A stretch of DNA of 64,000 bases from Fragilaria crotonensis (taxonomy: Eukaryota > Bacillariophyta > Fragilariophyceae > Fragilariales > Fragilariaceae): NCBI GenBank assembly GCA_022925895.1, contig JAKSYS010000021.1:161047-225046 (forward strand), written 5' to 3'. The translations under genes and the position numbers were made by a program. Under the pieces are notes generated by a model that ran no database searches, was not told the origin of the DNA, and worked only from the letters and a program-made list of their open reading frames with translations. Positions within the stretch are counted from its first letter, which is position 1; each line of letters begins with the position of its first letter. Shown here piece by piece: positions 3,142 through 61,808 of this stretch.

Positions 3142-4525
3142 ATGGAGAATGCCCTCGAGCTCTGTGGCTTCAATGCCCAAACCATCCGATACCTTATAAG
3201 CCAAGGATTTAACTCACCAGACGACTTGTTGCTTGCAACAGAGTCGGAGTTGAACTCGATGGCGACTTCGGTCGCGAGAAATCCACCTAGGAACATGGCC
3301 CAAATCAACATGCCATTCATGGCGTTAAAGAATTTGAAGGGACTTCGTTTCTGGGCAGATGAAAGGAAGCGCACCGGTCTTGATGCAGACGCTGACGATT
3401 TCACTGGTGAAGATGTCACGATCTTCACGGCAAAATGTCAGGAGTACAATGAGCTTAAAGACGCCGCTAAGGATGAGGATGCATCGAAGCCGGACGCTTT
3501 GAAAAAGCTTACCGGATGGGCTCTCTGGAACAAATCATTCCAAAACTACCTCCGTCAGATCGTGGGTGCCGCAAAGATCCCTCTTATCTACTTGGCTAGA
3601 AACGAGAGAGATAATCCAGATGAACCTCTGATTCCCGCAAATTTCGGTACACCAACCGAATACCTTATTGAGGCGACTATTTTCCGAGGGAGGCATTACG
3701 ACATCGATAACCCCCGATTCTATCGCGAGTTAAAGTCGTTTACTGTTAATGGTGAGGGATGGTCGTACATTAAGAAATTCGAGAGGTCTCAAGATGGGAG
3801 GAGGGCGTACTTGGCTTTGAAGACACAGTGCGAGGGAACGGCATCAAGATTACGCGCAAGAACAAGCGTATGCGTCAATCTCCAACGCCGTTTACTCGGG
3901 TTCACGTTGCCAATACAAATTCAGGACTTCATCAATACCCATCAGACAGCTCACAATGAGATTCTTGATTGCGATCCCTCAGAGGCCGTCCCGGAATCTA
4001 AAAGGTTGCAGATTTCTTAAAGGGTATTACCGATCCAAAATTGGAATCGGCCGTTTCGGTTGTGCTGGGTGATGTGAAGCTGTTGAATGACTTCCAGCTC
4101 TGTCAGCAGTACTTATCACGACAGTCGAAAATCGAGCTACCCTTGAGAAGAGTAGAGCGGAACATCTCTGGATTGAAGAGCGGCGGAGAAAATCCGATCA
4201 GAAGGAAAGGAGGAAACTTCCAAAGAACTTTAAGTTGGAGAACAAGTGGTATCCCCCAAAGATCTACCGCCTCCTCACCCAAGAGCAGCAGGAACAGCTC
4301 AGAACATGGAATAAGGATAAGGACGGCAAGAAATCAAAGGGGAAGAAGAGATCAGTGGCAGCCCTCAAGAAGCAGATTAAAGATGTGTTAAAGGAGGTGG
4401 ATAAGAAAAAGGAGAAAGACGAGAGTGACGAGGACGAAGACGATTCGAGCGCTGACGACGCTGCCGGAAAAGAATTCGGCCGCGGTGCGCACAATAAGAA
4501 GAAAGCGAAGAAGGACAGTGCCTGA
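3142..4525 (+). pseudogene. Element E gag
   Basis: Capsid-like Gag that would package element RNA. ATG at 3142; the first 290 residues align with G Gag (NALELCGFNAQTI, FWADERKRTG, GEGWSYIKKFERSQDGR). The frame breaks near 3997-4005 (TCTAAAAGG, one base missing relative to G), and at least two more small indels occur between 4100 and 4240. The C-terminus from 4235 is rich in Lys, Glu and Asp (KKRSVAALKKQIK, DEDEDDSSADD) and has no zinc knuckle, so RNA binding probably relies on basic residues. It ends in TGA at 4523-4525. Confidence 0.88.
4523..4525 (+). promoter_or_regulatory. In-frame UGA between gag and pol of E (candidate readthrough stop)
   Basis: The codons read GCC TGA TAT and then stay open in the same frame into the pol ATG at 4544 and the protease. 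The same arrangement occurs in C, D, F and G. Confidence 0.6.
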
Positions 4526-5445
4526 TATGAACACACTGTCGCGATGGTATCAAGGGCCGTGTATGCCGTAGACTATGACACCATCACTAAAGGCGACCAT
4601 CGCGCGGGAAGGTGTGAAATGGATTCTCACGCTGACACATGCGTCGCTGGAGGCAACTGCGTCGTCTTGGAATACACGGGGCGAAACGCAACGGTTGAAG
4701 CGTACTCGCCTGATTACCCATCAAAGACGGTACCAATTGCAACAGTGGCAACGGCATATGACTGTCCAACTTCTGACGCCACATTCGTTTTGATTATCAA
4801 TGAGGCACTTTTCTTCGGTGAATCACTAACCTTCTCCCTCCTCTCCCCGAACCAATTACGAGACAATGACGTGCATGTCGACGAACGTCATAGACAACAT
4901 GCCCCCGATTCGATCTTCGGTCTTCACGTACCATCTGAGCCCTTGACCATTCCCTTTGACCTCGAAGGTGTTATCGCTGGTTTTACCACGCGACTGCCGA
5001 CACAAGCCGAACTTGACGATGTCGCACTCCATGTCGAACTGACGTCTGACGTCGAATGGATTCCTTGTAACTTCGCGCTCTCGCTCGTGGAGGAGGATTC
5101 CAAGACGGACGATTCTACAATTTCAACTTTACGTGCTCGGCGCTTAAAAGTCCTTAGATCCAAGTCCGATAAACATAGAATCAAAAGTTGCATAAGAACC
5201 CTCGAAGCTACACAATCTTTGTTTGAGATCGAGACCGCAAACGAAGTCGGAACGCTCGACAACGACCCTATACTGAGACGGGTCGCAGCCCTGACAACGT
5301 ACGAAGCGGATACAAAGGTGTATGCAATTCGAACCGGCGATGTGACTTCGGAAGTGACACCCGAGAATGTCGCCAAGCGATGGTTGGTCGGGATCGAGAC
5401 AGCGAAGAAAACCCTTAATGTGACGACACAAAAAGGGGTTCGCCC
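4526..5445 (+). pseudogene. Element E protease and pre-integrase region
   Basis: The aspartic protease core is CEMDSHADTCVAG around 4614-4652; canonical retropepsins have D[ST]G where this reads DSH. It continues with LLSPNQLRDNDV and a poorly conserved segment, then VTPENVAKRWLVGIETAKKTL, the conserved stretch before integrase. The reading frame is open from the UGA to about 5445, where one small indel moves integrase to another frame. ATG at 4544 could serve as a start, but frame continuity with gag makes readthrough equally possible. Confidence 0.85.
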
Positions 5446-6302
5446 ATACCAAACCCAGCAACGCGGCGATTCAAAACGCAAATGGCGCACCTACGCTATC
5501 CGCGAATGGGTGGGATGTTTTACGCGGACATAATGGAGCCCAAGGTGCTTTCTCTAGAGTCCCAAAGGTACGCCCACGTAATTGGAAACGGCCGTGGATT
5601 CGCGAAGGTATACCCGATGGAGAGGAAGAACGAATCAATTTACGCGCTCGACGATTTCGTTAAAAAGGTTGGAATTCCTGAGACTTTGCTTTGCGACAAC
5701 GACACGACAATGGAGGGGTGGCGGGAATGGAAGAAACGGATCCGGAAATACTCAATCGATCCAAAGTATACCGAACCCCATTCGCCATTCCAGAACAAGG
5801 CTGAGTTGGACATAAGGGAATTAAAAGGATGGTACGGAGGTTACAGGATAGAATGAAATCGCCGAGGCGGCTTTGGAACTATTTGGTGAACTTATGCGCG
5901 AGGATCAATCCTTTGTTGCTGGTTCACATCCGGACCTGAATGGCAGGAGCGCCTTTGAACAGGTACACGGTTGGACGCCAGACATCTCTCTGTACATCAT
6001 GCACGGCTGGTATGAAGTCGTGGCTTTTCTTGATAGCGACAACGAGAGGAAATTGGCATGCTGGCTTGGGCCAGCAGAAGACTATGGCGGAGGGACGCCG
6101 TGTTCCTCCTTCAAAATCTGCCAAACCTATCGTGAGAAGTACAGTTTGGTCCCTGACCCCGGAAGAGAAGGCCGACATGCGAGAGGATATCGAGGAGTTG
6201 CTGAAGTCGATTGACGAAAGAGATCGGAAACGATCGGACTAACGACGAGGTGTTTGCGGAGCTAGGTAATGATGTGCTCCACAAGTAGAGATACTCGGGG
6301 AT
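5446..6302 (+). pseudogene. Element E integrase
   Basis: Retroviral-type DDE integrase. Catalytic residues are visible as FYADIMEPK (first Asp), LLCDNDTTMEG (second Asp) and NKAELDIRELK (Glu). The C-terminal part has HGWYEVVAFLD and RKLACWLGPAEDYGG, conserved in G and H. Frame changes near 5450, 5835, 5935 and 6110-6300 break the gene, and several stops lie between 6240 and 6300. Confidence 0.87.
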
Positions 6303-9254: not shown

Positions 9255-9564
9255 TAGAGAAAGATAGAAGACGATCGGAATGATCGCCACCCATGTTATA
9301 AGAGAGTGAAACAAACGGGTGCATGCTGTGACATCATAAGACAATTGAGGTTGGCCGCCGTCATGGGGTTGTCTTGTCCTTCATGAGATTGTATGTCGCT
9401 GATGTCAGCCGTACTAATCGCGAGCGAATGGGGAATTGATCACTCCCCAAACCGACCGCAACGCCCATGGTTGCAATCACTCGTTGTGGTGATGTCGGCG
9501 GAAATAACTCCCAGCAAAGAGTGTTCTTTCTAACCTCACTTATACGTTTCCTCTATGAATAGAG
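9255..9564 (+). other. Element F leader
   Basis: No gene. Untranslated leader from the primer site to the gag ATG; expected to hold packaging signals, but none is recognisable. Confidence 0.6.
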
Positions 9565-11142
9565 ATGGAACCTGCTGATATCCCTGTTGCCGCTGCTGGT
9601 GTTTTCCCAGCTGGCGTTATCGAACCTATCGGTCGTGACGTTGACTTCGACGTGATGTTCCCTGGTCTTGAGCATCACAACATCCGTTATGTTTTGCATG
9701 TCTGTGGATTGCGTGATATACCTTCGCAGACCCGGCTCATTGAATTCGAGGGTATTGACGAGGTTGAGGATTTGGCTAACTATACCGCCACTGAGATCGA
9801 TCAGATGGCTGATCGGAACTCTAAGCGTACCCCGATTGCACAGCGTGTCCAGTTCGGTCTTAAGAGGACAAAGTATCTCAAAGCGGTATGCCACTGGGTT
9901 CGCAAGAACCTCCGAGAAGGTATCCATTGTAATGTTCGTGACTTGGATGTTCCACTTATTGGTGATTTGATTCAGGAGATGGCGACCCAGGACGCAAAGA
10001 AGGACGGTGATTCGAAGTTGTACTACCCGGATGCATTCGTGGCGACCGATTACAAGAACTGGATCAAAAAGGTCGAGAACTATTTGGATTCCAGGACTGG
10101 TAAGTCTGGAGTCCCTCTCAGTTATGTCATTCGACCTGTGAATGCCAACCCAGCCGAGGCTCCCGATGAGTACACTCGTGTGATGTGGGCGGCATCATTG
10201 GAAACGCCACAGTTCCGTGATGACAATCGTGAAGTGTACCACTTGTTCAAGGATCTGTTAACCAAAACCGAAGGAGCAACCTGGTTTGAGAAGGTTAAGG
10301 ATGGTGATGGGCGTGGCGCTCACTTGCTTCTTCGTGAACACTACGTGGGTGAAGCCCATGATATGCGCCGAGCGGCTTCAGCAAATGCGAAACTGGAAAC
10401 TTTGTTCTGGAAGAGTGAAGCGTCTTTCCCATTTGAAAAGTATCTCACGAGACTCAACGAAGCGTTTAAAGAACTCGAGGACGCCGGGCAGCCATTATGG
10501 GAAGCTCAGAAGGTGACACATTTGTTGAAAGGGATTCAAAACGATGATATTCAAGTTCAAACCACGATTGGATTAGTTCGGCAGTCGTTTTTGTCTAACT
10601 TTGAAGAGGCCTCACTTGCTCTTTCGCGTGCAGTGTCCTCTCGTTTTGCCAGTGTCGAATCTAACAAGCAGAAACGACGCATTGGAGCAGTTGAGAGCCG
10701 TTCTGGAGGAGGTAGGTCTGGTGGCCGTGGCCGTGGACGAGGGCGCAACTCTGGCGGGAGAGGCGGTGGCCGTGACGGCAATCGTATGCGTGTTGTGATG
10801 AACGGTGTTGATGTAACTGACACCTCTCGCAACTTCACGTCCGACGAATGGGACAAATTCCGAGCTTGCGGTGGCCATTCTTACGTGTCACAGCGGCGTG
10901 AATATCTCAGTGGTCGTACTCATGGACGGGGTGGTCGCGGAGGTCGCGGAGGTCGAAACTCCGACGCTGGTAATTCGAACTCCAGCGGTAACAACAGCGT
11001 TCCTCGAAACATCTCGGCTAATGTAACCAGCGTCACGGACACCCAGAACACAGAAACGCAGGACAACTCAACAATTGCATCGCAGTCAACTCGTGGTAAC
11101 CAGAATGCTGGCAGTCGTTTTGGTCCTCGTCGTACGGACTGA
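9565..11142 (+). CDS. Element F gag, 525 codons, RGG-rich C-terminus
   Basis: Intact Gag. The N-terminal half resembles J and more distantly E (YVLHVCGLRDIPSQ, KNWIKKVENYLDSRTGKSGVPLSYV). The middle has the capsid-like helical pattern (FEKYLTRLNEAFKELEDAG, VTHLLKGIQNDDIQ). There is no CCHC knuckle. Instead two Gly/Arg blocks occur (residues about 375-405 and 455-470, runs such as GGRGRGRGRNSGGRGGG), RGG boxes that commonly bind RNA. It ends ..RRTD-TGA, and the same frame stays open past the stop into protease. Confidence 0.93.
   Translation: MEPADIPVAAAGVFPAGVIEPIGRDVDFDVMFPGLEHHNIRYVLHVCGLRDIPSQTRLIEFEGIDEVEDLANYTATEIDQMADRNSKRTPIAQRVQFGLKRTKYLKAVCHWVRKNLREGIHCNVRDLDVPLIGDLIQEMATQDAKKDGDSKLYYPDAFVATDYKNWIKKVENYLDSRTGKSGVPLSYVIRPVNANPAEAPDEYTRVMWAASLETPQFRDDNREVYHLFKDLLTKTEGATWFEKVKDGDGRGAHLLLREHYVGEAHDMRRAASANAKLETLFWKSEASFPFEKYLTRLNEAFKELEDAGQPLWEAQKVTHLLKGIQNDDIQVQTTIGLVRQSFLSNFEEASLALSRAVSSRFASVESNKQKRRIGAVESRSGGGRSGGRGRGRGRNSGGRGGGRDGNRMRVVMNGVDVTDTSRNFTSDEWDKFRACGGHSYVSQRREYLSGRTHGRGGRGGRGGRNSDAGNSNSSGNNSVPRNISANVTSVTDTQNTETQDNSTIASQSTRGNQNAGSRFGPRRTD
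11140..11142 (+). promoter_or_regulatory. In-frame UGA between gag and pol of F (candidate readthrough stop)
   Basis: The codons read GAC TGA CTT. A C after UGA is a known leaky context. Downstream the same frame runs without a stop to 11379. Confidence 0.65.
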
Positions 11143-11413
11143 CTTGCAACCTCAACTTTGGATGTCGATTCAAGGTTGGGGCGCCGTAATGTATCTGTCA
11201 TCAATTCATCTGTGCGATACAGGGCTGTGGCTGCTGTGGATACTAAGCTCTCATTCAAATCAGAGACTGGATTTGTTGCCCGATGTGAAATGGATTCGCA
11301 TGCCGATACTTGTGTTGCCCGCCCAAATTTTGTTGTCGACGAATATACCGGTGAGAACTGTGATGTAGTTCCTGAAAAATAACGACTATCAACCAAAAAA
11401 GGGCGTTCCGATC
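11143..11413 (+). pseudogene. Element F protease
   Basis: Same frame as gag. Protease core CEMDSHADTCVARPNFVVDEY at about 11283-11345. A run of five A at 11377-11381 (GAAAAATAA) creates a TAA; one A fewer would join the frame to the long pol frame from 11414, so the break is a single-base homopolymer change. Confidence 0.88.
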
Positions 11414-19503: not shown

Positions 19504-19506
19504 TCA
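19504..19506 (-). promoter_or_regulatory. In-frame UGA between gag and pol of D (candidate readthrough stop)
   Basis: The codons read GAT TGA CGT; the gag frame stays open after the stop to about 19231. Confidence 0.6.
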
Positions 19507-20637
19507 ATCCTTTCGTGACTTCTTTTTGTTACGACCTCCAAAAGAGTCACCAGCATTATCGGGAATGCTGGATTCATCCTTGGCGGACGTTTCATCATCT
19601 TTGGATGAGTTGCTGAGTCTTTTGGCAGCGATAGACTTTTTCAATTCGGCAAGTTGAGCCTTAACATTGCTGGCTTTCCTCTTTGTGGGTGTAAAACCCT
19701 TTGCTTTGTTCTGCTTTCTGGTGTCCATGACCGTCTGCTTGTCAGCATCGGACATTTTTCTCCAGTCGGAGTAGTATCTTGTCCAGACGGACCTGTCTGG
19801 CATGTGGATGCCTTTGCGCTTTGACGCGAGGGACGCTCCTGCCCCTCCACCACGGATGCGCTTGGCTTTGACCTTCATAGTGTCAGTCGCCGACACCTTT
19901 CGATTGAGTTGGTAATCAGGGAGTTCAGAGACGAGTGCGGATAAGTGATTAGCGCATTCGGTAAAGGTTACTTTATCCTTGTCCATCTGGGCGCGAACTC
20001 GGAGAGTCCCGACCGCCGTCTGGAGTTGGGGGTGTTCAACCTTCTTCAAGAGCATTCTGACCTTCGCCTGTTGCTGAACTGGCTCTCCTTCGGTCTCAAA
20101 GATGTTGAACATGGTCTGTATCTTATCCAAGAATACCGAGATCGAGAGTGCCTTTTCGTTCTTGTAGTGGAGTGTGTCGCGGTAGCGTTCTGCGACAGCA
20201 GTGCGCCGACTGGTGTTGCCTTCTCCGCTAGAATTACCCCTGAGAGCCTCCATATCCTTTCGGCCGTCCTGGCGTTTGGCAAGTGGTTTAATCCACTGCT
20301 CCGCCAATTCAGCTTGTAAGAAACTCTTCAATAACTGATGTACCTTCCTGGAGTTGGCTTGATAGTTTGAACCGGTCAATGGTGCACATGCGATGGCTTG
20401 CTATTGAAGCTTGCACAGTCGGCAGTGCTATCCGGCTGTTCGAGTTCCCTAATGACGTAGCATAGGGGGAATGCCATTGACACCGGGGATGGTCAAGAGG
20501 TAGTTTACGAGTGCCGGCTCCCATTCGGGCCACTTGCGTTCTTCTTTGAATTTGCCTGGATCTGCCACCTTGCTGACGGTATCTCACTGGTCCTTCTCAA
20601 CCTTTCGAACGTCTGCACGTTCGTATCCTTCGTAAAG
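19504..20637 (-). pseudogene. Element D gag, C-terminal two thirds
   Basis: Gag downstream of the L insertion: LYEGYERADV, WPEWEPALVNYLLTIPGVNGIP, then an open frame from 20379 (NYQANSRKVHQLLKSFLQAELAEQW, KVRMLLKKVEHPQLQ, MPDRSVWTRYYSDW). The region 20380-20640 has several indels. The C-terminus is Lys-rich (RNKKKSRKD) with no zinc knuckle, and ends in TGA at 19504-19506, with the same frame open beyond. The N-terminal part is at 46276-46614. Confidence 0.88.
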
Positions 20638-24300: not shown

Positions 24301-25368
24301 CAAGCAGCTTGTGCATGCTGGGATTTGGCATTTTTGCCAACTTCTTTGGGAGCAAACCGCGCTTGGCCATGCTTTGCATTTTGGCTCCTGACATGTGGTT
24401 CAACTTGTGATGCCAGCGAAGGAATTCTGCAGCTGGTTTCTCTTGGGAAGCAGTATCCTCTTCATCTTCAATGATGGCTGGCAAGTCAGGGCGGTTCTTG
24501 GCATCAAGATCAAATGAGACTGGTGTATTTGGAGGTTGACTCCAATCCACCCCTTGAGATGAGGTATCTGGTGCCTCTGGTTGATGAAGAGGTTCCTGAG
24601 AATCGTCATTATCATCATCAGGGATGAGATGGGTCTCCATGTTGATGATTGGATCATCCTCATCCAGTCCCACCTCACACATGTTGCAGAAGGTGGTGAA
24701 AGCCTTGTAGCTTGGAGCAGTATACATGGTTGCAATGTTGCCGCTCCCTTGGTTCAACCTCACTGTTTTGGTGTGCTGTCTTTGAGCCCAGTGAAGTTGA
24801 ATGCTGTCATGGTATGTTGCACACCATGTGCCCCTTGGCAAAGGCTTGAAGTCTTGAGCAGTCTGGGCCCAATGCTGTGGAGACAACAGCTTTGAAGGTG
24901 AATCCTTAACATAGAGCCCATGTGGAATGACAATGTCATGAGGGACTCCATCATCATCTTCAATTGACCATTTGATAGTCCCTGAGTAGATCTCAGTAAG
25001 TGTTCCACCCAACCCCTTCAACTTCTTGTTGACCCTCTTGAGAGGAGTGATGAAGTCTTTCTTGTCATTGGAGATGCAATAGGATGCACAGTTGTCAATC
25101 CTGATAGCCTTGGAATCAGTATCAAAGCTTGCTGCTTCATCATGGTGGGCTTGCCTTGCCTTCATTGCAATGACTGCTGTCAGGCAGTTGAGTTGGGTGG
25201 AATTTCGTTTGTACCTTGGCCTTTTGTCCCTCATCCAAGGTCTTGGTCTTGGTTGCATGCTGAAACCTCCCTCATGCATCCAGGACTTGACATATTCAGA
25301 CACTGTGACTGGGTGCACCTTCCAATATCTCACCTTTCCTGAGGCCTTGCTTGAATTTGGATTGGTAA
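21391..25368 (-). pseudogene. Element C pol: protease, integrase, RT, RNase H
   Basis: Starts at the B insertion in the frame of C gag. Protease core RIDNCASYCISND (about 25060-25090) has D-N-C in place of D-S/T-G. The pre-integrase motif WHHKLNHMSGAKMQ is followed by CQIPACTSC, the zinc-binding HHCC pattern. Integrase has SVDQLES, QADNGRFAENK and QNAVAERRIRT. RT has FSPVASWAAI and LYTDDSI; RNase H has VDASFTGD, TESEYLA and EDNTGAVEL, ending KQLMGW-TAA. The only break apart from B is one surplus T at 24331-24335, between LAK and CQIPAC. Confidence 0.94.
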
Positions 25369-25607
25369 CGAACGAATACGGACGTGAACAGTGAGGATAC
25401 AAGTACTGCACAGTGCCATGGCAACGTCGTATGGAAAGTATCCGGTACTATTCGTTATATGAATTGTGTATGTGTATCTAAATATTAGCGAGTAAGTGGA
25501 TGAACGCTACGGCGATCATCTCACTCTTTATTTGAGAATCAGTTGCAAGCATCAATCGATTTGTAAGTTATTGTCCATGGGATAGTTTGTCCCATGAACT
25601 TTACTCG
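25369..25607 (+). repeat. Element B 5' LTR
   Basis: 239 bp, CGAACGAATAC...TTTACTCG; no TG..CA ends. Contains a perfect hairpin near the 3' end (25576-25596: CATGGGA, seven bases, TCCCATG), just upstream of the primer site. Confidence 0.92.
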
Positions 25608-25621
25608 GTTTATCAGACCCA
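25608..25621 (+). promoter_or_regulatory. Element B primer binding site
   Basis: GTTTATCAGACCCA directly after the LTR, shared with D, F, G and J. Confidence 0.8.
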
Positions 25622-25911
25622 GTGGCGTAAGAGCTATGGGCAATGCGATTGATGAGCCTGCAGTCGTATGCTGTCTGATGGCGTGGTTAACGACCGATCG
25701 CTGACGCGTACGACATGGCATCATCCGACGGTTGTCGGTGGTGACCAGTGTATGAAAGAATGGAAGATCTGATCAATCTACCTCAAGAATGGTGTTGTCG
25801 TTACGCCACCTATGAGTCGACTGTGTCGACGGCCGAGTCGGCAACTTAATATCATGAATGGGTACTAACAATTGTTGTCGTACACATATTTCAGACACCA
25901 GTAAAACAGAA
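25622..25911 (+). other. Element B leader
   Basis: No gene. Untranslated sequence from the primer site to the gag ATG. An in-frame ATG-equivalent at 25858 exists, but the homology with D Gag starts at the ATG at 25912. Confidence 0.6.
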
Positions 25912-27406
25912 ATGGACGAAGTTGTTGCACCACGTATTGAGGAAGTCATTGAGGTGCCACCACCTAATGGGGACACCATGAACTTGGCACTCACATGGAT
26001 TGGATTTGATAACGAAGCGACGAGAAATCGTATTCAGGTAGAAGGTTTTGGGTCGTTCGACGACTTGAAATCCATGAAAGAAAAAGATATCAGGGACCTG
26101 GCCGAGTCTTATGGACGCCGCACTGCTGCAGACGGTCGTTTTATCTTCGGTATTCGTCGTATTCGATACCTCATCGGTATGGTTCACTGGGTCCAAGACT
26201 TCACTAGGGTTGGCGAAAGTCCTAGCCTGGATGAGTTTGGTGAAGACGGAGCAGCCTTCTGTGCGGCATTGGAGATTGCTGTCAACCGTGCGGAAGTTCG
26301 AATGATCGAGAAGGATCAATCGGATACTGTCAGTAAGGCCGCAGATCCCGGCAAGTTTAAAGATGAGAAGAAATGGCCGGAATGGGAACCGGCGTTTGTG
26401 AACTACCTGTCCACTATTCCAGGTGTCAATGGTATTCCATTGTCCTATGTGGTTCGGGAAGATGAGACACCACCTGCCGGGAGTGAGTACGGGAGTTTCA
26501 ATGAACGCGCTATCGCATGTGCACCACTTTCCGGTGACGTCTTTCAAGCTGACGCACGGAAAGTGCACCAACTCATTAAGAGCTTTCTCCAAACTGAGTC
26601 GGCTGAACAATGGATCAAACCATTGGCTCGCCGACAAAGTGGTAGAGACGACATGATTGCTCTCCGCAAGCATTACAGCGGAGAAGGCAACACGAGCCGT
26701 CGAATCGCGGCGGCGGAGCGTATTCGGGACACGCTTCACTACAAGAACGAGCGTGCTATGTCATTTTCGTCCTTTCTCGACAAAATGCAGAAGATGTTTA
26801 ACATCTTCGAAGAAGAGAAGGAGGTTATCTCTGAACAAGCCAAGGTGCGAATGCTCCTGAAGAAGGTTGAGCACCCGCAACTGCAGGATGCTGTTGGTGC
26901 GCTTCGGGTGCGTGCATCAATGGACGGCTTGACATTTACGGAGTGTGCGAATCACCTATCGGCGCAAGTGTCTGAACTGTCGGATCATCAATCAACGCGT
27001 AAGATTTCTGGTGCGGTGTCCGACAGAACTAAGGAACCGAAGCGCATTCGAGGCGGTGGTGCCAGTAAACAAGACAGTGCATCGAAGCGCAAGGGCATTT
27101 ATATGCCTGATGGGAGTGTCTGGACCGGATATTATTCGGACTGGGCACAAATGTCCAGTGACGACAAACAAATTGTCCTCGACACTAGAAAGAAAAATAA
27201 AGGCAAATCCCCCAAGAAAGGGCGACAGGCGTCCGAGGTAGGAACAAAACTGCAAGATATCAAATCTCAGATGGCGGAGCTGAAACGTACTATCGCATCG
27301 CTCAGTAAATCCAAACCTCAGGACGCCGACGGGAACGAATCTGATACACCCGACAACGCCGGCGACTCCTTTGGAGGCGTCAGCAAAGAAACAGAAGAAA
27401 GAATGA
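25912..27406 (+). pseudogene. Element B gag
   Basis: Gag with LALTWIGFDNEATRNRI, KEKDIRDLAESYGRRTAADGR, RKVHQLIKSFLQTESAEQW, KVRMLLKKVEHPQLQDAVG and MPDGSVWTGYYSDW, all shared with D. The ATG at 25912 is chosen because D Gag starts at the equivalent point. The basic C-terminus has no zinc knuckle. Near 27376-27380 one extra base moves the frame; in the corrected frame Gag ends KKQKKE-TGA at 27404-27406, as in H, and Pol follows in that same frame. Uncorrected, the frame runs to 27468. Confidence 0.9.
27404..27406 (+). promoter_or_regulatory. UGA at the gag/pol boundary of B, in frame with pol
   Basis: The codons read GAA TGA CTC in the pol frame, the same context as H. It is in frame with gag only if the single-base indel near 27378 is discounted. 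Confidence 0.5.
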
Positions 27407-29410
27407 CTCTGGATGTTCCTCGTTGTCATCGTGCAACTAATAATCGGTTGCATGCAGGCTGGGCTTAGATGGTTGAAGATGTTCTGCACTCTTGCAAAGC
27501 AGCGACACATTGCAGCTCACATCTCGTCCACGAGGCGAGCAAGAACGCGAACTGTGTCACGCGTGTGTAATGACAGCTCGATTGTTTACAGCAGACTCGA
27601 GCTTGACACTCACGCTGACACCATCGTGCTCGGTCGTAACTGTGTGATTTTGTCACACACCGGCCGCGAATGTGACGTCTCGCCTTATACCGAGACGTAT
27701 ACAGCCATCAAAGATGTGCCTATTGTCACCGGCGCTACCGCATGGATGTGTCAACACACCGGTGACACCTACATCCTTGTCTTCCATGAATCACTATGGA
27801 TGGGGGAGCAGATGGATCACACGTTGATCAACCCCAATCAGCTTCGTCACTTTGGCGTCCAGGTGCAGGACAACCCTTACGAGGGTGTACAGATGCACCT
27901 CGCAACCGAAGATGGCGACATGATTTTTCCTTTGGACTCGGATGGCACGACTATCTTTCTCTCCACTAGGACCCCCACTGCTATCGAACTTCACGAATGT
28001 CCTCATATTGTCCTGACCTCGCGGTCCCCATGGGATCCCCACGCCGTGCAATTCCCGGAACCTGCGCATCGTGTGGAGGAGGGAAGGTTGGCGAACCGGG
28101 TTAGCGCCATTCAACGTGGTGACGTTAACGGTGACGTTAACTCACGCTGTTGCAACGATCCGTGGTGTGACACTCCATGTTTATGCCTTCGTAGCATCAC
28201 GGAACGACTGATCGCCGAGGTAAGAGTACCCGAGGTGCTCACTGATGTACCTGGTCGACGAACTTTTGTATCGCAGGAGCGACACAGTAGTGTGACACCA
28301 GAGGAACTTAGCGAGAGATGGTGCATCGGGCTCACTCAGGCCAGGAATACAGTCCAAGTGACGACACAGAATGCAGTCCGCTCAGCGATCCTACCATTGA
28401 GTCGCAGGTATCGAGCCGACAGGGTGTTTGAGCGGCCGCTGTTGAGGGGACACTATTACTGCGACACTATGGATGGCCGTCATAAATCCCTTGATGGTAA
28501 TAAGTATGCTCAGATATTTGCGAGCAAAGATTTCTTTGCAGTCGCATACCCAATGGAGTCCAAATCCGGTGCTGGAGAAGCGCTCAGACAATTCGTGCAT
28601 GACTTCGGACGGCCAGAACGTCTGACCTCCGATGGATCTCGTGAACAGAGCGGCAAGAAAACCGAATTCGTTCGGAACGTCCGCAAGTACTCGATCGACC
28701 ACAGGGTCACTGAACCGGATCGACCGAACCATAACTTCGCGGAAGGTGTTATACGCGAGATTCGAAAGAAGTGGTATCGTGTGATGACGAAAAAGAATGT
28801 GCCACGTCGACTATGGGACTATGGTTTACGTTGGGTATGTGAGATACAGAATCGTACCTCGAACTCATCGAGGGAACTCGGCGGGCGATGCCCGTTGGAG
28901 AAAGTAACTGGGGAATCTGTTGACATCTCTGAGTACCTTGACTTTGGTTTCTATGACCGAGTCTGGTACAAAGACAATGCTGGCCTTGGTGAAACCAAGC
29001 TCGGACGGTGGCTCGGCGTGTCGCATAAAGTGGGGACGCTGATGTCGTTTTGGGTACTGACCAAAGAATGTCAGGTACTATCAAGGACCACGGTCCAGAG
29101 AGTCACAAACTTGGAGCAACAAACGCAAGACGTCATAGATCTCGGAAAGGCCTTTGACTCGGCTGTCATACCGAGATTGGGCGACCCTGATTTCTACCCG
29201 CACGACGGTGACGGAAAGGTTCGTCCGACTGATTGGGACAACAACACTGGATTCGACGATGAGTTCTATGAAGAATTTGGAAAGGTGGTTTCCGATCAGG
29301 GACTGCCTGAAGCCGACCGAACCTTCACCCTGACGTCTTTGACGATACGTATCTTAATATGGAGCTCGCTTTACCGCGAGGTGGTGGTGAAGTTGAGCTC
29401 GGCCGAGTAA
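27407..29410 (+). CDS. Element B protease and integrase (open from the UGA)
   Basis: Protease core LELDTHADTIVLGRN near 27600-27640 (D-T-H). Then TLINPNQLRHFGV and the pre-integrase VTPEELSERWCIGLTQARNTV. Integrase residues are YYCDTMDGR, LTSDGSREQSG and HNFAEGVIREIRKK, followed by LWDYGLRWV, VDISEYLDFGFYDRVWY and RWLGVSHKVGTLMSFWVL. The frame is lost near 29325 (one C short in TTCACCCTGAC), so the final residues to 29410 are out of frame. Confidence 0.93.
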   Translation, partial: LWMFLVVIVQLIIGCMQAGLRWLKMFCTLAKQRHIAAHISSTRRARTRTVSRVCNDSSIVYSRLELDTHADTIVLGRNCVILSHTGRECDVSPYTETYTAIKDVPIVTGATAWMCQHTGDTYILVFHESLWMGEQMDHTLINPNQLRHFGVQVQDNPYEGVQMHLATEDGDMIFPLDSDGTTIFLSTRTPTAIELHECPHIVLTSRSPWDPHAVQFPEPAHRVEEGRLANRVSAIQRGDVNGDVNSRCCNDPWCDTPCLCLRSITERLIAEVRVPEVLTDVPGRRTFVSQERHSSVTPEELSERWCIGLTQARNTVQVTTQNAVRSAILPLSRRYRADRVFERPLLRGHYYCDTMDGRHKSLDGNKYAQIFASKDFFAVAYPMESKSGAGEALRQFVHDFGRPERLTSDGSREQSGKKTEFVRNVRKYSIDHRVTEPDRPNHNFAEGVIREIRKKWYRVMTKKNVPRRLWDYGLRWVCEIQNRTSNSSRELGGRCPLEKVTGESVDISEYLDFGFYDRVWYKDNAGLGETKLGRWLGVSHKVGTLMSFWVLTKECQVLSRTTVQRVTNLEQQTQDVIDLGKAFDSAVIPRLGDPDFYPHDGDGKVRPTDWDNNTGFDDEFYEEFGKVVSDQGLPEADRTFTLTSLTIRILIWSSLYREVVVKLSSAE

Positions 29411-31595
29411 CGAAACGCCTGAGGACAAAGACGGCCTCCCGATAGGGACAGCCAATGATAACCCAATCCTTGACACAAGAGTTTACGAGGTCGAGTTTCC
29501 TGACGGTCACAAGACGTCTCTTGCTGCAAATGCAATTGCCGAAAATTTGTTCTCGCAAGTTGACGAGGAGGGTAATCGGCACGTTATGCTCGACGAAATC
29601 ATCGGCCATCGGACAAATGGCCAGGAGTTGAAGCAACAAGATGCATTCATCATGACCTCCTCCGGTACCCGAAGGCGTCGCGAAACGACGATCGGTTGGG
29701 AGGTTCTTGCGCAATGGAAAGATAACAGTTCGACGTGGATCGCAATGAAAGACATGAAAGAATCATACCCGGTTCAGCTCGCAGAATATGCGGTCGCCAC
29801 AAGGATAGCGGAAGAACCCGCCTTTGCCTGGTGGGTTCCGTACACATTGAGAAAACGTAATCGAATCATCGCGAAGCTCAAGTCCAAATATTGGGTGAGG
29901 ACTCACAAGTTTGGGATCAAGATTCCTAAAACAGTGGCAGAAGCAAAAGCGTTTGATCTGGAAAACGGTAACAATTTGTGGTGGGAAGCTATTTGTAAAG
30001 AAATGCGGAACGTACGTCCTGCCTTTGAGGCGTGGGAGAAATCCGAGAGCGATATACCAATCGGCTATCAGCAGGTTAAGTGTCACTTAATTTTTGATGT
30101 GAAAATGGGCGAGAACTTCCGCCGGAAGAATGGGTTCGTGGCAGGCGGGCACACGACTGAAGTGCCTAGCACATTGACGTACGCGTCGGTCGTCTCGCGA
30201 GACTCCGTTCGAATCGCGCTGACAATTGCTGCCCTTAACGGGCTTCAGGTTATGGCGTGTGACATCCAAAACGCCTACCTGACGGCAGATTGCCGAGAGA
30301 GATTTGGACTCGGGCAGGGCCCGAGTTCGGATCAAGCCGGAACGATCTTCATTGTTCGGAAGGCCCTATATGGTTTAAAGTCCGCTGGTGCGGCCTTCAG
30401 GGCCTTACTAGCAGAAACGCTACATGACTTGGGGTACAGCCCCACGAGGGCTGACCCTGATGTGTGGCTGCGCCCGGCGGTGAAGCCTGACGGTTTCGAG
30501 TATTATGAACTCGTTCTGTGTTACGTCGATGACGTGCTTTCGATTGCAGCGGATCCGGCTGCAACTTTGAGGGGACTGCAGTCGGTCTTCAAGCTAAAGG
30601 ACGATAAGATCGCAGAGCCAGACATTTATCTTGGTGCACAACTGGGTAAGATGGAAGTCGATGGTCACGAATGTTGGACAATGTCGGCCGAAAAGTATGT
30701 GCAGGCATCTGTGCGCAACGTGGAGGAGTCTCTGGCAAAGAAGGGACTTCGGCTTCCGACAAAGTGTTATACTCCTTTACCACCAGATTATCGTCCCGAG
30801 CTTGACACGTCGAACGAGTTGAAGAGTGACGGGGTTCAGTACTTCCAAGAATTGATCGGGATACTACGATGGGCTGTGGAACTCGGACGTGTTGATATTC
30901 TCTTAGAAACGTCACTGCTGTCATCGCACTTGGCACTTCCAAGGATCGGCCACTTGAATCAAGTGTATCGAGTATTCGGGTACTTGAAATTGCACCCAAA
31001 GCGGAAACTAGCGTTTGATGCGCAGCATCCTCGGATCAGCGAAAAGATGTTTAAACGTCATGATTGGTATGACTTTTATCGTGACGCCAAGGAAGCAATT
31101 CCGATTGACATGCCAAAACCACGTGGGAACAGTATGTCAACTCACTGCTTCGTTGACGCCAGTCATGGTAGTGACCGTGCTACGCGCAGGTCACAGACAG
31201 GTATATTGATCTTTTGCAACCGCGCTCCGATCATGTGGCATAGCAAGCGACAAAACACAGTGGAGGCCAGCACGTTCGGTAGTGAGTTTCAAGCGATGAA
31301 AAATGCCGTGGAGCTAGTCGAATCTCTCAGGTACAAACTCCGAATGTTTGGAGTTCCCGTGGAGGGACCAACGAATGTTTTTTGTGACAACGAAGCTGTC
31401 TATAAAAATACATCTCTTCCTGAATCAACGTTGAAGAAAAAGCACCATTCCATCGCCTACCATCGTTGCCGTGAGGCCGTCGCAGCGCAAACCGTAAGGG
31501 TGGCCAAGGAGACGAAGACCAATCTTAGCGACTTGTTCACGAAGGTCTTACCGCAAGCCAGGAGAGAAGAGTTATTGGACAAATTCACGTACTAA
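29411..31595 (+). CDS. Element B chromodomain-like segment, RT and RNase H
   Basis: After a second one-base loss near 29422 (one G short in CTGAGGACAAAG) the frame is open to the TAA at 31593-31595. Contains GWEVLAQWKDNSSTWIAMKD (chromodomain-like), AFAWWVPYTLRKRNRI, RT with HLIFDVKMGENFRRK, CDIQNAYLTAD and LCYVDDVLSIA, and RNase H with FVDASHGSDRATRRSQTG, TFGSEFQAMK, FCDNEAVYKNT and NLSDLFTKVLP. Only single-base indels separate this element from a complete polyprotein. Confidence 0.94.
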
Positions 31596-31652
31596 GTGAG
31601 AATCGAAGTAACATGACAATGTGTTACAACGTCATGGCTACTTCGAGGGGAC
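31596..31652 (+). promoter_or_regulatory. Element B 3' untranslated region and polypurine tract
   Basis: TTCGAGGGGAC ends at 31652, directly before the 3' LTR. Confidence 0.7.
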
Positions 31653-31891
31653 CGAACGAATACGGACGTGAACAGTGAGGATACAAGTACTGCACAGTGC
31701 CATGGCAACGTCGTATGGAAAGTATCCGGTACTATTCGTTATATGAATTGTGTATGTGTATCTAAATATTAGCGAGTAAGTGGATGAACGCTACGGCGAT
31801 CATCTCACTCTTTATTTGAGAATCAGTTGCAAGCATCAATCGATTTGTAAGTTATTGTCCATGGGATAGTTTGTCCCATGAACTTTACTCG
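31653..31891 (+). repeat. Element B 3' LTR
   Basis: 239 bp, same sequence as 25369-25607, followed by the TSD copy GTAA. Confidence 0.93.
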
Positions 31892-31895
31892 GTAA

Positions 31896-32028
31896 CCCAC
31901 ACCTGAATAGATTGGACAATGGCCCCCAAGCCATGGCTGAAGAGGCAGCACACGTCTGCGCACCATTTCTGCCACCACTTGAATATCCAAAGCCCAATGA
32001 ACACGCAGTCCATTGGGCGTCCCCATCA
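31896..32028 (-). other. Element C gag/pol junction: in-frame UGA and open linker to the B insertion
   Basis: The gag stop TGA is at 32026-32028 (codons GAA TGA TGG). The same frame then stays open for 44 codons to the B insertion, and after removing B with one TSD copy it continues without a shift into C pol at 25368. A different lineage from B, D-H, with the same arrangement. Confidence 0.75.
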
Positions 32029-33246
32029 TTCCTCATCATCGGAGATAGCTGCGAGAGCTTTGGCCAGTTTCATGTTAGGCTTGGAGTCTTGACTCTTGTT
32101 GCCTTGATCCCTCTTGGGACCACCTTTGAAACCAATACCCTTACAGTCAGAAGGCTTGTGTCTGGTCCACCTGTTGTGATTGGGGCACCAATGGTAGTCC
32201 TTGCCTTCAACAGTCTTGGACTGCTTCTCTCCTTCCTTGGGATGAACATGTACCCATGCTGGAAGATCCTCAATTCTGAACTTGCCTTTACCCTTGTCTT
32301 TCTTGTTTCCCTGCTTGTTGTCCTTCTTTCCACCTCCACTGGCCTTGCCACTTGCTGGATTAGGTTTCTTCTGATTGGACATGAGGGTTTTGACTTGGGA
32401 TTGCAAGGCAATGATAGTTTCCTCCTCTGTAGTCTTGAGGCACCACTGCTCTGATTCTTTCCTGGTTTTGAACTTGTTGAGAGCCCAGTCCATGAGTTGT
32501 TGATACTCAACTTGGCCACCTTCTTCATAGAAGTCTTCCTTCTTCTTGATGTAGTCCACAAACTCAGCATCCTTGCAGGCCTTGTAACCTTTAAAGAGAT
32601 TCACCAGGAGATCTTGAGTTTGTTCACCCCTGGCAGAGAGCTTGCTGACCAATCCAAGAACATAGTCATTGAAGAGTTCAATATCAGAATTGATGTCGCG
32701 CATGGCATGATCGAGACTGGAGAGCTTGGTCCGGACACTAGTGATGGTGGCTCTAGTATCCACATGTGAGACCATAATAATGACCTTGAGGAGGACTGGA
32801 CCTGATCCTTTACCTCCAAAGATGAAGGGATGAACATTGCCTCTGGTCCTGACCTGCTTTTGAGCAGCATCAGTCAAAGAGTTCATGAGACAATGGTACA
32901 TCATGAATGAATCTTGAGCTTCCCTGGCATCCTCATGCATGTAGGTGAGGGCATGGGCTCTGACCTCCTCATAGGAGATCTCCCCATAAGACTCAATGAG
33001 ATCCTTGGAGTTAGCCACATTTCCTTGAATGGGAATGCTCAAGATGTTGAGCCAATCAAAGACTATGGACCTATCCCTGGTTTGATCAAGGAAGAGCTGA
33101 AGATTGTCTGACTTGCAGTCAAACTTGATGGACAAAGCCTCAGTACCAGACTTGAAGAGCTTGGCAGCAGCCTGCTCTGAGTAGTTGAGGACATCAGGAT
33201 TAGCAAAGGCTGGAGCCAATGCAAAATGAGGGGCTGGAGCAGCCAT
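32026..33246 (-). CDS. Element C gag, 406 codons
   Basis: Intact Gag starting MAAPAPHFALAPAF. It contains LSIKFDCKSDNLQLFLDQ, a copia-type capsid region with many helices, and a basic Lys/Gly-rich segment (residues about 300-340). Near residue 365 is WCPNHNRWTRHKPSDC, a CX2HX5HX4C finger that replaces the usual CX2CX4HX4C knuckle. Acidic end ISDDEE before TGA. It lies directly inside the 5' LTR and leader and would be the first product translated. Confidence 0.95.
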   Translation of the reverse strand: MAAPAPHFALAPAFANPDVLNYSEQAAAKLFKSGTEALSIKFDCKSDNLQLFLDQTRDRSIVFDWLNILSIPIQGNVANSKDLIESYGEISYEEVRAHALTYMHEDAREAQDSFMMYHCLMNSLTDAAQKQVRTRGNVHPFIFGGKGSGPVLLKVIIMVSHVDTRATITSVRTKLSSLDHAMRDINSDIELFNDYVLGLVSKLSARGEQTQDLLVNLFKGYKACKDAEFVDYIKKKEDFYEEGGQVEYQQLMDWALNKFKTRKESEQWCLKTTEEETIIALQSQVKTLMSNQKKPNPASGKASGGGKKDNKQGNKKDKGKGKFRIEDLPAWVHVHPKEGEKQSKTVEGKDYHWCPNHNRWTRHKPSDCKGIGFKGGPKRDQGNKSQDSKPNMKLAKALAAISDDEE

Positions 33247-33383
33247 GGGGGACCTTGAAGCTCAAATGAAGTACTTGACTTGAACTGACCCTGATTGATC
33301 AAGGAATGCAGCACTGGGCTTGCAGATGAGCTTAAAAGGTCAAAGAATGAAGCACTTGGCTTGTACTTAGCGCAGAGGAAGCG
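33247..33383 (-). promoter_or_regulatory. Element C leader and primer binding site
   Basis: Directly inside the 5' LTR the complement of the site reads GCGCAGAGGAAGCG (33368-33383), close to the D-arm region of eukaryotic initiator tRNA-Met (GCGCAGCGGAAGCG). This suggests priming from an internal fragment of that tRNA. The rest is untranslated leader. Confidence 0.55.
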
Positions 33384-45180: not shown

Positions 45181-45336
45181 ACAGTTCTACCATTTATTGT
45201 TCTACCAATTACTGTTCTACCAATTACCATTCTACTGACCACTATTCAGAGTTTCTTCCCACATTTCAGCCATCCACCCTACACGCAACCAATGGCTTTG
45301 TACACTTCTTCTATGGATGCATGTTTTAGGTTATAG

Positions 45337-47097: not shown

Positions 47098-47147
47098 GTC
47101 CCCTCGAATTACGGCACCATGACTAGCATGGCCGCAATTCGTCAAAA

Positions 47148-51340: not shown

Positions 51341-52850
51341 GACGGACTGTCCAGTCGTGATTTGGCTAACCTGACTGCGCTGTGAGACTGAAACGCTGTC
51401 GACAGGTGGCGAGACTTGTAATGGAGTCGCCTGAGTGCGAAGTTCTTGGACCTCGGCCCGATTACGGCGCTGTTCATTAAATGCTGCGCGTTCCTGGCGA
51501 AGCGTTCCTTATCTTCTGGCTTGAACTTGAGATAAACGTGACGTGGGAAACTGAAAGAGGCATGGTACTCAATTTGAGACCCGTCGGTGAGTGTAATAAT
51601 GCGGCTATCGTTGCGAGTCTTCTGAATATTGCCGCGCCCACCCCGACCCGAGCCTCGTCCGCCTCTACCTCCACGACCATAGCCACCACGACTGGTGGAT
51701 TGTCCCCTCGAACCGCGACCCGCATGAATTTGGTTGATGTTGCGCCTGATACGATTCTGAGCCGCCCCCATCTGGGGCGGGTGTTTCTGATTGACCATAT
51801 TGCGAAATAACGACAGAGCTTGCTCGTACGTCATGGTCATCGGAACACGAGACAATTCTATTTCCAATTGTGCTTTTGTGGGAGTGAGGAAGTCCGCCTT
51901 TATCTTGTCAATCAACAAGCGAATCTTCATGGAGTTTGAATACACGACTCGGCCTTCTCTTTTGACATACGCATTGAACGCACGCGTCAAACGCTTTTCG
52001 AATTCGGACCACCACATATGAGGGGGCCTCTCACCAGAATAGAAGAGGGACTTGATTACCTCGTCCGCTTCGCGGATGTCAACTGCATGTATGCCGACCC
52101 CTTCATAGTGTTCCACAAGGCGTTTGAAAGCTTCGCGTCCATCATTTGGTTTGGCTAAGCCTTGAATCTTGGCTTCCGCAGTATCATTGCCGGCGACGAA
52201 GTTAACCAGGAAGGTATGTACTTGAACCGTGTCGATGGCATATGCGTCGCCGTCCAATGGGGCCATTGCGACATAATCGTCAAGGAAGTCGGCATTTTCT
52301 TCTACGACAGGTCCACCATGTTCGCGACAAATATACTTAAGTGGAACTCCATCGCGGCCGGGTATGGCACGAAGATAATTCACAAAGGTGGGTTTCCAGT
52401 CTTCCCACTTTGTTGCCTCCTTGAACTTTTCCGGTTTGGCCGCTTCTGCGAGGGTCCTGGAGTCCGTCTTGTATTTTTCATGAGTATGGTATCGGCGAAT
52501 GAGGTCAGTAACTTGGCCTATTGGGAAGGCAGAGTCACTAGGGTCACGTCGAGTCGAAGCTCATCGCGTGCCCACTGCACGAAAGCCTTGATATTCTTGC
52601 GTACGCCAGGGTTCAAGCGAATCTGACCCTGTAACACACTAAGATCAAAATATGTCTTGAAGTGTTCATCGAGCTCCTTGAATGTGATATCCTTGCAAGA
52701 AGTGAAGGTATCGTCAAAGATATCACTCGCAATACGCTGAGCTTGCGTCTGTTCCATGAACAAGACTATATTGTTTACGCCGCACGCGATCAACGCGTCG
52801 ACGACCGTGAATGCTCCATCCATCATCGTGATTCTATGAATTGGAGGCAT
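51341..52850 (-). pseudogene. Element J gag
   Basis: Starts MPPIHRITMMDGAF; contains VRKNIKAFVQWARDEL and, after a frame change near 52520, WKPTFVNYLRAIPGRDGVPL and a capsid-like middle (RAFNAYVKREGRVVYSN). The C-terminal part is an RGG box (GYGRGGRGGRGSGRGGRG, near 51655-51710), as in F, and there is no zinc knuckle. A second frame change near 51480 leads to the Ser/Gln/Thr-rich end that runs into protease. Confidence 0.88.
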
Positions 52851-53042
52851 TCAATTCGTTAGCACATATAACATTCGTACCACGGTTACGTTGTGGCCTT
52901 GCACGCATGACCGAAGTCAGGGATACATGACCGAAGTCAAGTGAGGGAACATAGTCGAAACTAATCTTCTCGTCCTCGTCGTTGCTCCGTTCCATCATGC
53001 CCTTCCTCCCTGGGCCATGGAGCGCCATTGGGTCTGATAAAC
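52851..53042 (-). promoter_or_regulatory. Element J leader and primer binding site
   Basis: The complement of the primer site, TTGGGTCTGATAAAC, is at 53028-53042 beside the 5' LTR. The rest is leader; a 64-codon frame from 53028 is out of phase with gag and is not supported. Confidence 0.75.
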
Positions 53043-53268
53043 CAAATAAATGTAGCTGTAGTAATAAAGGAGATAAAGATGAAACTTACAAAGGTACTAC
53101 TCGAAATGGTTATAAAAGAATTGTGTGTACACTATGAATCGAATTCGTATCATACATCATACATCATGCACTACTGAACGTGCAATCGTGGTTGAGCACC
53201 GGATGTCACAGATGCGAAGACGTACAGTAGACTCATGGGACAGTAGATATCCTAACGGATTTTACTTG
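53043..53268 (-). repeat. Element J 5' LTR
   Basis: 226 bp, same sequence as 46872-47097. Confidence 0.93.
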
Positions 53269-56733: not shown

Positions 56734-57306
56734 TCATTCCTTCTTCTGCTTCTTGTGTGTGCACCCAAAAACTCTTTGCGGGCCGCGTCGTCTGCACTCG
56801 ACTCAGCTTCATCGCTATCCTTCTTGTCTCCTCCTTTCTTCTTCATCTCATTCTTGAGCTCGTCCTTTATCTGTTTCTTCAGCGCTGTCACCGACCTCTT
56901 GCCTTTTTTGCTCCACTCCTTGAGTTGGTCTTTCTGGTCTTGACTCAAAAGGCGGAAGATTCTCGGCGGATACCATTTGTTTTCTAGTTTAAATCCTTTT
57001 GGTAATTTATCTCCTTTTGTTTTCTTGTCCGACTTGTTGCTGCTCTTGACACCTGAAATGTTTCGTTCCTTACTTTTTTCAAGGGTTGCCCTGTTTTTGA
57101 CGGTAGTTGAAATGTACTGTTGGCATGTTTGGAAGTCCTTTAACATGCTTGGGTCGCCCAGTACCACTGACACTGCCGATTCCAACTTGGGATCTGTTAT
57201 GCCCTTCAAGAAATCTGCAACTTCCTTTGATTCAGGAATTGCCTCGGTTGGGTCGCAGTCAAGAATCTCGTTGTGAGCGGTCTGATGGGCGTTGATGTAA
57301 TCCTGG
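56734..57306 (-). pseudogene. Element H gag C-terminal part
   Basis: NAHQTAHNEILDCDP from the G insertion, then GITDPKLESAVSVVLGD, KERNISGVKS, GFKLENKWYPPRIFRLLSQDQ and a Lys/Glu-rich tail. One indel near 56755 changes frame; in the corrected frame it ends HKKQKKE-TGA at 56734-56736, with Pol following in the same frame. Uncorrected it runs to TAG at 56727. No zinc knuckle. Confidence 0.86.
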
Positions 57307-60100: not shown

Positions 60101-60839
60101 CTCTTCTATCGATTCCAACAATTCCGCGATCTCCTCCTTCGATCTGCACGTTCATCAGGTGTTAGGGCCCAGAACGTGCTCCTCACGATGGCTTTGCCGA
60201 CTTCGGTAACAGGAACGCTGCGTCCCGCCACCATAATCTTCTGCTGGCCCTAACCAGCATGCCAACTTCCGCTCGTTGTCATTGTCGAGGTAAGAAATAA
60301 CTTCGTACCAACCATGCATAACGTAGAGCGAAATATCTGGTGTCCACCCATGGACCTGTTCGAAGGCAGAGCGTCCTTGTAGATCCGGATGTGTCCCCAA
60401 CGAAGGATCTGATCCTTGCGCAAAGGTTGACGAGATAATTCCAGAGTCTTCTTGGTGATCGCGTCTTGTCTTGGAATCTTCGGATCATCCTCTTCAACTC
60501 TCTGATGTCCAATTCAGCCTTGTTCTGAAACGGTGAATAGGGTTCCGTGTACTTCGGATCAATTGAATACTTCCGGATCCTCTTCTTCCACTCGCCCCAT
60601 CCTTCCATTGTGGCGTCGTTATCGCACAAAATACTTCTGGAATTCCCACTTTCTTGACAAAATCATCTAGCGCATAGATTGACTCGTTCTTACGCTCCAT
60701 CGGGTAAGCCTTCGTGTATCCCCGGCCATTCCCAATAATGTGAGCATATCGTTGCGAATCAATTGATTTGATCTTCGGTTCCATTATGTCGGCGTAAAAC
60801 ATCCCCTCAACCTTGGATAGCGCAGATGTGCCATCTGAG
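60101..60839 (-). pseudogene. Element G integrase
   Basis: MFYADIMEPKIKSIDSQRYA, YPMERKNESIYALDDFVKKVG, then MCDNDATMEGWGEW in another frame, NKAELDIRELKRMIRR, WNYLVNLCARIRSF and HGWYEVISYLDNDNERK, ACWLGPAEDYGG. Three catalytic residues are present but spread over three frames. Confidence 0.87.
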
Positions 60840-61805
60840 TTTTAAAACGTCGCGTCGCTGGATTCGGTATCGACCGGATTCCTTGTTGGGTGGTCACCTT
60901 CATTCTTTGCCGTCTCTAATCCAACCATCCAGCGTCGTGCCACATTTTCTGGGGTTACATCGGAAGTCACATCTCCAGTTCGTATCGCCGCAATGCCAAT
61001 CTCCTCCGAGCTCGCATCCGCTGTCGTCGTCAAGTGCTGCGACCCTTCGCAGTATCGGGTCGGTCTGATTCAGCAGATTTACTTCGTTTGCGATTTGCAT
61101 TTCGAAGGGAACTGGCTCGCTGCAAGAACCTGCATGCAACTCTTGATCTTCTGTTTCGTTGCCTTGGAGTGTAGGACCTTCAAGCGCCTTGCTCGCAAGT
61201 TCGTAATCTCCTCTTCGTCTTCGGAGTCCAACACATCCTCCTCCGCGAGCGAGAGCGCGAAGGTGTGGGAATCCACTCAACGTCGGAGGTGAGTTCGACA
61301 TGCAGGGCAGTATTATCAAGCTCGTCTTGGGTTGGGGTCTCGAATCAAAGCCGGCAACAACTCCTTCGAGGGTAAAAGGGATTCGTAGGGGTTCGGACGG
61401 AACGAGAATACCGAATATCGAGTCAGGTGCATGTTGCCTGTGTCGTTCGTCGACGTGGACATCGTTGTCCCGGAGCTGGTTAGGGGAAAGTAACGAAAAT
61501 GGTAAGGAGTCTCCGAAGTAAAGAGCTTCGTTAATGATTATCACATACGTGGCCCCGGAAGTCGGACAATCGTAGGCCGTTGCAACCGTTGCGATAGGAA
61601 TCTGCTTCGACGGGTAATCAGGCGAATAAGCCTCGACCTCAGCTGATCTCCCGGTATACTCGAGAACCACGCAATTACTTCCTGCCACGCATGTGTCGGC
61701 GTGAGAGTCCATCTCGCACCGACCCGAACGATGACACTCTCCGTGTATTGCATTGTAATCCACTGAGTATACCTCCCGCGAAACCATCGCAACGGTTCTG
61801 CATTG
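60840..61805 (-). pseudogene. Element G protease and pre-integrase region
   Basis: Open in the gag frame after the UGA: MVSREVYSVDYNAIHGE, protease core CEMDSHADTCVAGSN near 61690-61730, AYDCPTSGATYVIIINEALYFG and LLSPNQLRDNDV. Frame changes near 61330 and 61270; pre-integrase VTPENVARRWMVGLETAKNE at about 60890-60960. Confidence 0.88.
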
Positions 61806-61808
61806 TCA
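61806..61808 (-). promoter_or_regulatory. In-frame UGA between gag and pol of G (candidate readthrough stop)
   Basis: The codons read GCC TGA CAA, then the same frame continues to ATG at 61787 and protease. Confidence 0.63.

Follow-up and report, generated by a model that had tools for sequence, protein, structure and literature searches.

Tca2 (pCal), a Ty1/Copia element of Candida albicans, is described with Gag and Pol in one frame and a UGA between them (PMC2194720). Readthrough is known from this element and has been proposed for the relatives of Tj1 (PMC2194720, PMC10085805), a group of fission-yeast elements (Tj1, Tosmo1-3 and Tcry1) carrying an in-frame GAA-UGA-CU (PMC10085805). In the viral type II readthrough of Firth and Brierley, UGA is followed by CGG or CUA and by a structure about 8 nucleotides (nt) further on (PMC3542737), and in murine leukaemia virus an in-frame Gag/Pol UAG is passed by readthrough (PMC2194720). 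The present analysis concerns the Gag/Pol boundary of retrotransposons, designated by letters, in a stretch of 64,000 nt of the diatom Fragilaria crotonensis (contig JAKSYS010000021.1, positions 161,047 to 225,046), hereafter the window. A preliminary description of the window had proposed programmed readthrough of a UGA at the end of Gag. Comparative data favour this proposal, as deeply diverged families keep the in-frame UGA, the UGA-C context, a structure after the stop and selection on codons 11-40, and part of them lack an in-frame ATG before protease from which Pol could start separately. Programmed readthrough in the style of the viral type II signals is considered the correct reading of the Gag/Pol UGA with a probability of roughly 0.87, as judged from sequence comparison. 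The same description had listed one frame, splicing and frameshifting as the usual Copia modes; this list has to be amended, an in-frame Gag/Pol UGA being known already in the Copia element Tca2 (PMC2194720) and in gypsy elements of fission yeast (PMC10085805).

The diatom elements resemble Tca2 in their Copia type, in the in-frame UGA and in a short spacer, 8 nt in Tca2, before a proposed RNA structure (PMC2194720). However, Tca2 is a single yeast element with a purine-rich spacer and a proposed pseudoknot (PMC2194720), whereas the diatom elements form many diverged families with mostly C at +4 (the base after the stop), simple hairpins and covariation in two groups. The eight bases of the Tj1 group recur in 9 of the 38 families compared here; that group is of Ty3/gypsy type, its account names no hairpin at that place (PMC10085805), and the likeness is likely convergent. 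Type II signals of alphaviruses and of tobra-, furo-, peclu-, pomo- and coltiviruses share with the diatom junctions a UGA and a stem-loop, often about 8 nt past the stop, but belong to RNA viruses, where a replicase or coat extension is made (PMC3542737). UGA was found at 37 of the 38 diatom junctions and a stem-loop near 8 nt at 26, but an exact CGG or CUA triplet at just 9, with C at +4 in 32, which suggests a signal working like type II without being a strict member of it. Murine leukaemia virus differs in being a retrovirus and in its UAG with a pseudoknot (PMC2194720); in the one UAG family found here (UAG-GGA) a structure follows 6 nt past the stop. The CoDi elements are likewise diatom Ty1/Copia elements, and the main texts describing them, in which the word readthrough is absent, give no conserved UGA, context or hairpin (PMC2806351, PMC2774666). 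No published report of readthrough in diatom elements was found in the literature searched, which misses most subscription journals and Repbase notes.

The elements of the window are Ty1/Copia long terminal repeat retrotransposons of F. crotonensis. They form a nest, as evident from the Copia-type reverse transcriptase (Pfam RVT_2) in the Pol frames of E, F and B and from direct terminal repeats; among the elements checked for these, long repeats lie at 25364 and 31648 for B and at 20818 and 33384 around C. RVT_2 is also present in three public relatives. Integrase precedes reverse transcriptase in relative P0200 (rve 293-386, RVT_2 844-1042) and in the same order in P0271, with both rve matches below the Pfam cut-off; no rve was found in P0121 or in the window Pol frames scanned. 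Public relatives number at least 118 proteins for one Gag and at least 1352 for E Pol, F. crotonensis own proteins included.

Re-reading the sequence upheld a coding-strand TGA at all seven Gag ends named in the preliminary description (C, D, E, F, G, B and H), with C at +4 in D, F, G, B and H as claimed, and T in C and E. The claim that the frame stays open into protease stands for E, G, B and H, where the protease motif lies in frame, and needs correcting for C and D. In C the frame stays open past the TGA for about 45 codons, to about 31891; element B is inserted about 135 nt past the Gag stop, so that this stop is cut off from the Pol of C. Four relatives of C without the B insertion (L123-L126) have the same TGA followed by 77-123 open codons. 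In D the frame likewise stays open past the TGA, but no protease motif was found in it within 120 codons; its relative L108 has the motif at codon 66. The Gag frames of B and H, for which the preliminary description allowed one indel, are broken, and those of E and G are likewise broken upstream. Of the Pol frames said to end in TAA, those of A, B, C and E do so at the checked coordinates, but the frame taken for K ends in TGA. The element taken as K (46872-53268) resembles a lineage without Gag stop (L119).

The junction was then compared across the host genome (62.1 Mb, 881 contigs; the window lies on contig C142). From protease searches, 120 of 151 matches were taken as stretches of about 2 kb, and these and five window elements, 125 loci in all, were examined in the frame of the protease. 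For the C type, 16 shorter stretches were taken for 98 matches; L001 and L002 stand outside the counts, and the matches of the protease search with F are not part of the census. L133, L134 and L138 have no in-frame stop junction. The 136 stop-bearing loci (of 140) fell into 46 clusters, and 46 hand-picked representatives, pruned at 80% identity over at least 90 nt, gave 38 non-redundant junctions. Eleven clusters are without representative (L044/L035/L016, L048/L050, L037, L038, L039, L092, L094, L107, L111, L119 and L120), because decay, a frameshift or descent from a stop-less lineage puts their first in-frame stop elsewhere than at a recognisable end of Gag; L094 is unjudged. L120 reads TGA-CTA one frame off, and in alignment A2 the row of L128 is shifted by one base.

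In-frame UGA, its context and its spread over families were seen directly. The stop is TGA at 37 of the 38 junctions and TAG at one (L128), followed by C in 32, T in 5 and G in 1. CU follows the stop in 20 of the 38, and a GAA codon precedes it in 15. Gag is open upstream in the same frame for at least 150 codons in 33 families and at least 400 in 22, and families with intact Gag mostly have just one stop, which separates some 400-480 codons of Gag from Pol. Twenty Pol ends, from elements chosen by reverse transcriptase, served as the expected mix of stops; they come partly from the same elements, and some are possibly premature (e.g. L142, L145, L154 and L155). They comprise 10 TGA, 7 TAA and 3 TAG, with TGA-C in 2, so that TAA is no general ending of Pol in this genome. 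At Gag ends TGA is in excess of this mix (Fisher p 3e-5), as is C at +4 (against 5 of 20 Pol ends, p 2e-5); both p-values are nominal because the families are related and not fully independent. Eight stretches were located by their intact Pol frames, without recourse to protease similarity. Four of them (L160, L162, L163 and L164) have an in-frame TGA at the junction; L159 falls within Pol, and no junction is seen at the computed place in L161, L165 and L166. A whole-genome count of GAATGACT was uninformative.

The one UAG junction, L128 (C545:29900-31100), belongs to a C-type family and keeps the hairpin. Its stretch is present in three copies at 98-100% identity, the stop being read in L128 alone; L138 has no junction sequence in common with it.

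A structure downstream of the stop, which the preliminary description had suggested looking for, is indicated by predicted folding. The 75 nt past the stop fold better than their shuffles, with a mean z of -1.35 over the 38 junctions, as compared to -0.13, 0.12, -0.35, -0.03 and -0.24 at offsets of -225, -150, -78, +75 and +150; z falls below -1.5 in 17 of 38 at the stop and in 2 to 7 at other offsets. The probability per base of a helix opening is highest at nt 9-17 past the stop. At 26 of 38 junctions a predicted helix with 6 or more bp begins within nt 6-13, against 21.6% of 1274 control places, which lie in the same loci and overlap one another. Besides this folding signal and its position, covariation was directly observed in two groups. 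In the F group (6 sequences) 98.3% of 60 helix cells are paired and three pairs are changed on both sides (AU, GC and UG at one pair; CG and UA at two more). In the C group (7 sequences) 94.7% of 75 cells are paired and two pairs are changed on both sides (UA/CG/GU and GU/CG/GC), with a covariation score reached by none of 500 shuffles.

Selection on the codons past the stop was followed in 16 pairs with no element common to two pairs, several of them little diverged. The ratio of non-synonymous to synonymous change (pN/pS) is 0.37-0.61 in codons 11-40, as compared to 0.14-0.39 in the last 100 Gag codons and 0.16-0.23 in codons 41-130. Post-stop selection is thereby seen directly, and by this measure codons 11-40 are under purifying selection. 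Synonymous constraint just past the stop, another check suggested earlier, is borne out in part: pooled pS in codons 1-10 is 0.26-0.28, about half the 0.51-0.58 of Gag and of codons 41-130.

In the proposed mechanism, Gag would end at a UGA in frame with Pol, where most ribosomes would stop and release Gag, while a minority would decode the UGA by a near-cognate tRNA and go on to make Gag-Pol. The leaky UGA-C context may aid this decoding, as may the RNA hairpin about 6-13 nt past the stop in most families tested. Readthrough would thus set the ratio of Gag to Gag-Pol, giving little enzyme and much shell. The passage of ribosomes, its frequency, the inserted residue and the stimulation by the hairpin are what we infer from the features described above.

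Several observations weigh against readthrough of this kind. By the helix test, 12 of 38 families lack a helix in the expected place; among them are those of E, B and D as well as L127, whose strong hairpin the test misplaces. The hairpins of the G and H families are weak. The two doubly changed pairs of the C group are reached by 271 of 500 shuffles. The contexts UGA-A, at L162 and L163, and UGA-U, at 5 of 38 junctions, are not the leakiest. Pair by pair, synonymous change after the stop is lower in just 10 of 16 (sign test, p 0.45, not significant), and pN/pS of 0.57-0.82 in codons 1-10 indicates weak amino-acid constraint there. The Tca2 junction, similar in layout, gave by itself no readthrough in Saccharomyces cerevisiae (PMC2194720). 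Lineages without the stop exist, so that the stop is dispensable.

Of the 30 families with a recognisable protease motif, 20 have an ATG in frame ahead of it, which tells in the same direction, and in the E, G and H families an in-frame AUG lies about 6 codons past the stop. Pol could then be a separate protein made by internal entry or reinitiation at such an AUG, the stop being an ordinary terminator. Database Pol is indeed mostly predicted alone: among 120 of 301 public relatives, 99 have 1308-1512 amino acids, 13 are fused (1801-1914 amino acids) and 8 are shorter, though gene callers would split the two anyway and lengths do not reveal a stop. However, considering ATG starts, the other 10 of the 30 families have none before the motif, and a separate Pol would need neither a frame shared with Gag nor UGA in preference to UAA; this explanation is therefore regarded as improbable. 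Alternatively, some of the RNA could lose an intron that spans the stop and would then encode Gag-Pol by splicing; Drosophila Copia, where splicing regulates Gag and Pol, offers a precedent (PMC2194720). Yet coding constraint in one frame runs up to the stop and again from codon 11, and UGA, mostly UGA-C, serves throughout as the stop, which makes splicing very improbable.

Frameshifts and further stops in many copies might suggest that the UGA is decay in dead elements. Decay would not yield TGA at 37 of 38 Gag ends, nor 22 families with at least 400 open codons upstream, and there is hardly any chance that it explains the stops; as a general account it is refuted by the genome-wide pattern. 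Equally remote is a UGA read as selenocysteine or as a nuclear sense codon. Its presence in nearly all families would agree with such recoding, but intact Pol frames exceed 1000 codons without an in-frame UGA, UGA also closes 10 of the 20 Pol frames, one lineage uses UAG, and one copy has Trp at the place. No Rfam family reaches its gathering score in the window, hence no family of selenocysteine insertion sequences is indicated there, which speaks against selenocysteine.

The stop is not universal among these elements. In the host it is missing from two lineages, L036/L038 and L091/L096/L112/L119, and further tree rows without it are L107 and 10 of the 13 fused proteins from public data. L107 (C87:100218-102318), a copy of the D family, has Trp at the site of its relatives' Gag-end stop. 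Near the homologous place, no fold recurs consistently among the host members (L036, L038, L091, L096, L112, L119 and L107) in an unmatched comparison, in which single windows reach z of -3.2 and -2.8. A tree of 50 protease rows requires 6 changes between presence and absence of the stop, 4 of them forced by well-supported branches; built on a short protein and unrooted, it gives no direction of gain or loss. Scans of a viral collection with Pol and protease alignments gave no relative. A scan of prokaryote genome contigs gave one foreign Copia element (L167, CAMYIS010000357.1) on a 6.7-kb contig in a Woeseiaceae metagenome-assembled genome, probably a eukaryotic contaminant of the bacterial bin. 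Its Gag frame of 502 codons ends in UGA-CUAG, the in-frame Pol has at least 1319 codons, and a predicted helix begins at nt 9 past the stop (fold z -1.69).

There is about an even chance that the large Copia radiation of diatoms inherited its UGA readthrough with a hairpin from its common ancestor as the way to express Gag and Pol, kept it while Gag, protease and hairpin sequence diverged, lost it several times to a fused Gag-Pol and switched once to UAG-G. If so, the hairpin families would form a natural series for what a readthrough signal needs. Copia elements are usually described as one-frame, frameshifted or spliced. Readthrough as a widespread layout in a diatom would change the annotation of Gag and Pol, which gene callers split, and would supply natural variants of one signal by the dozen, to be compared with relatives that lack the stop. 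It would also suggest a usable leakiness of diatom ribosomes at UGA-C, with a bearing on diatom host genes.

Table 1. Gag/Pol junctions and associated features in the window (open codons are those in the frame of the TGA, upstream/downstream).
Feature	Coordinates	Strand	Open codons	Remark
E Gag-end UGA-U	4523..4525	+	144/335	in frame with Pol; 8 other cluster members have UGA-C
E post-stop Pol frame	4526..5533	+		protease motif at codon 32
F Gag open frame	9559..11139	+		527 codons
F Gag-end UGA-CUU	11140..11142	+	527/79	
F predicted hairpin	11150..11181	+		arms 11150-11163 and 11168-11181; spacer 7 nt from stop
D Gag-end UGA-CGU	19504..19506	-	298/90	without clear local hairpin
D Gag open frame	19507..20400	-		
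Element B, approximate bounds	25364..31893	+		near-identical direct repeats 25364-25609 and 31648-31893; sits in C
B Gag-end UGA-CUC	27404..27406	+	40/667	relative L118 has 158 open codons upstream
B post-stop Pol frame	27407..29410	+		protease motif at codon 66
C predicted hairpin	31992..32018	-		arms 32018-32008 and 32002-31992; spacer 7 nt from stop
C Gag-end UGA-UGG	32026..32028	-	411/46	
C Gag open frame	32029..33261	-		411 codons
H Gag-end UGA-CUC	56734..56736	-	22/140	Gag degraded; protease motif at codon 33
G post-stop Pol frame	60900..61805	-		protease motif at codon 32
G Gag-end UGA-CAA	61806..61808	-	67/301	Gag degraded

Apart from the junctions, the window holds a repeat array at 44495-45279 with 18 registered copies in steps of 15-60 nt, mostly 30 nt, which underlies long open frames in more than one reading frame.

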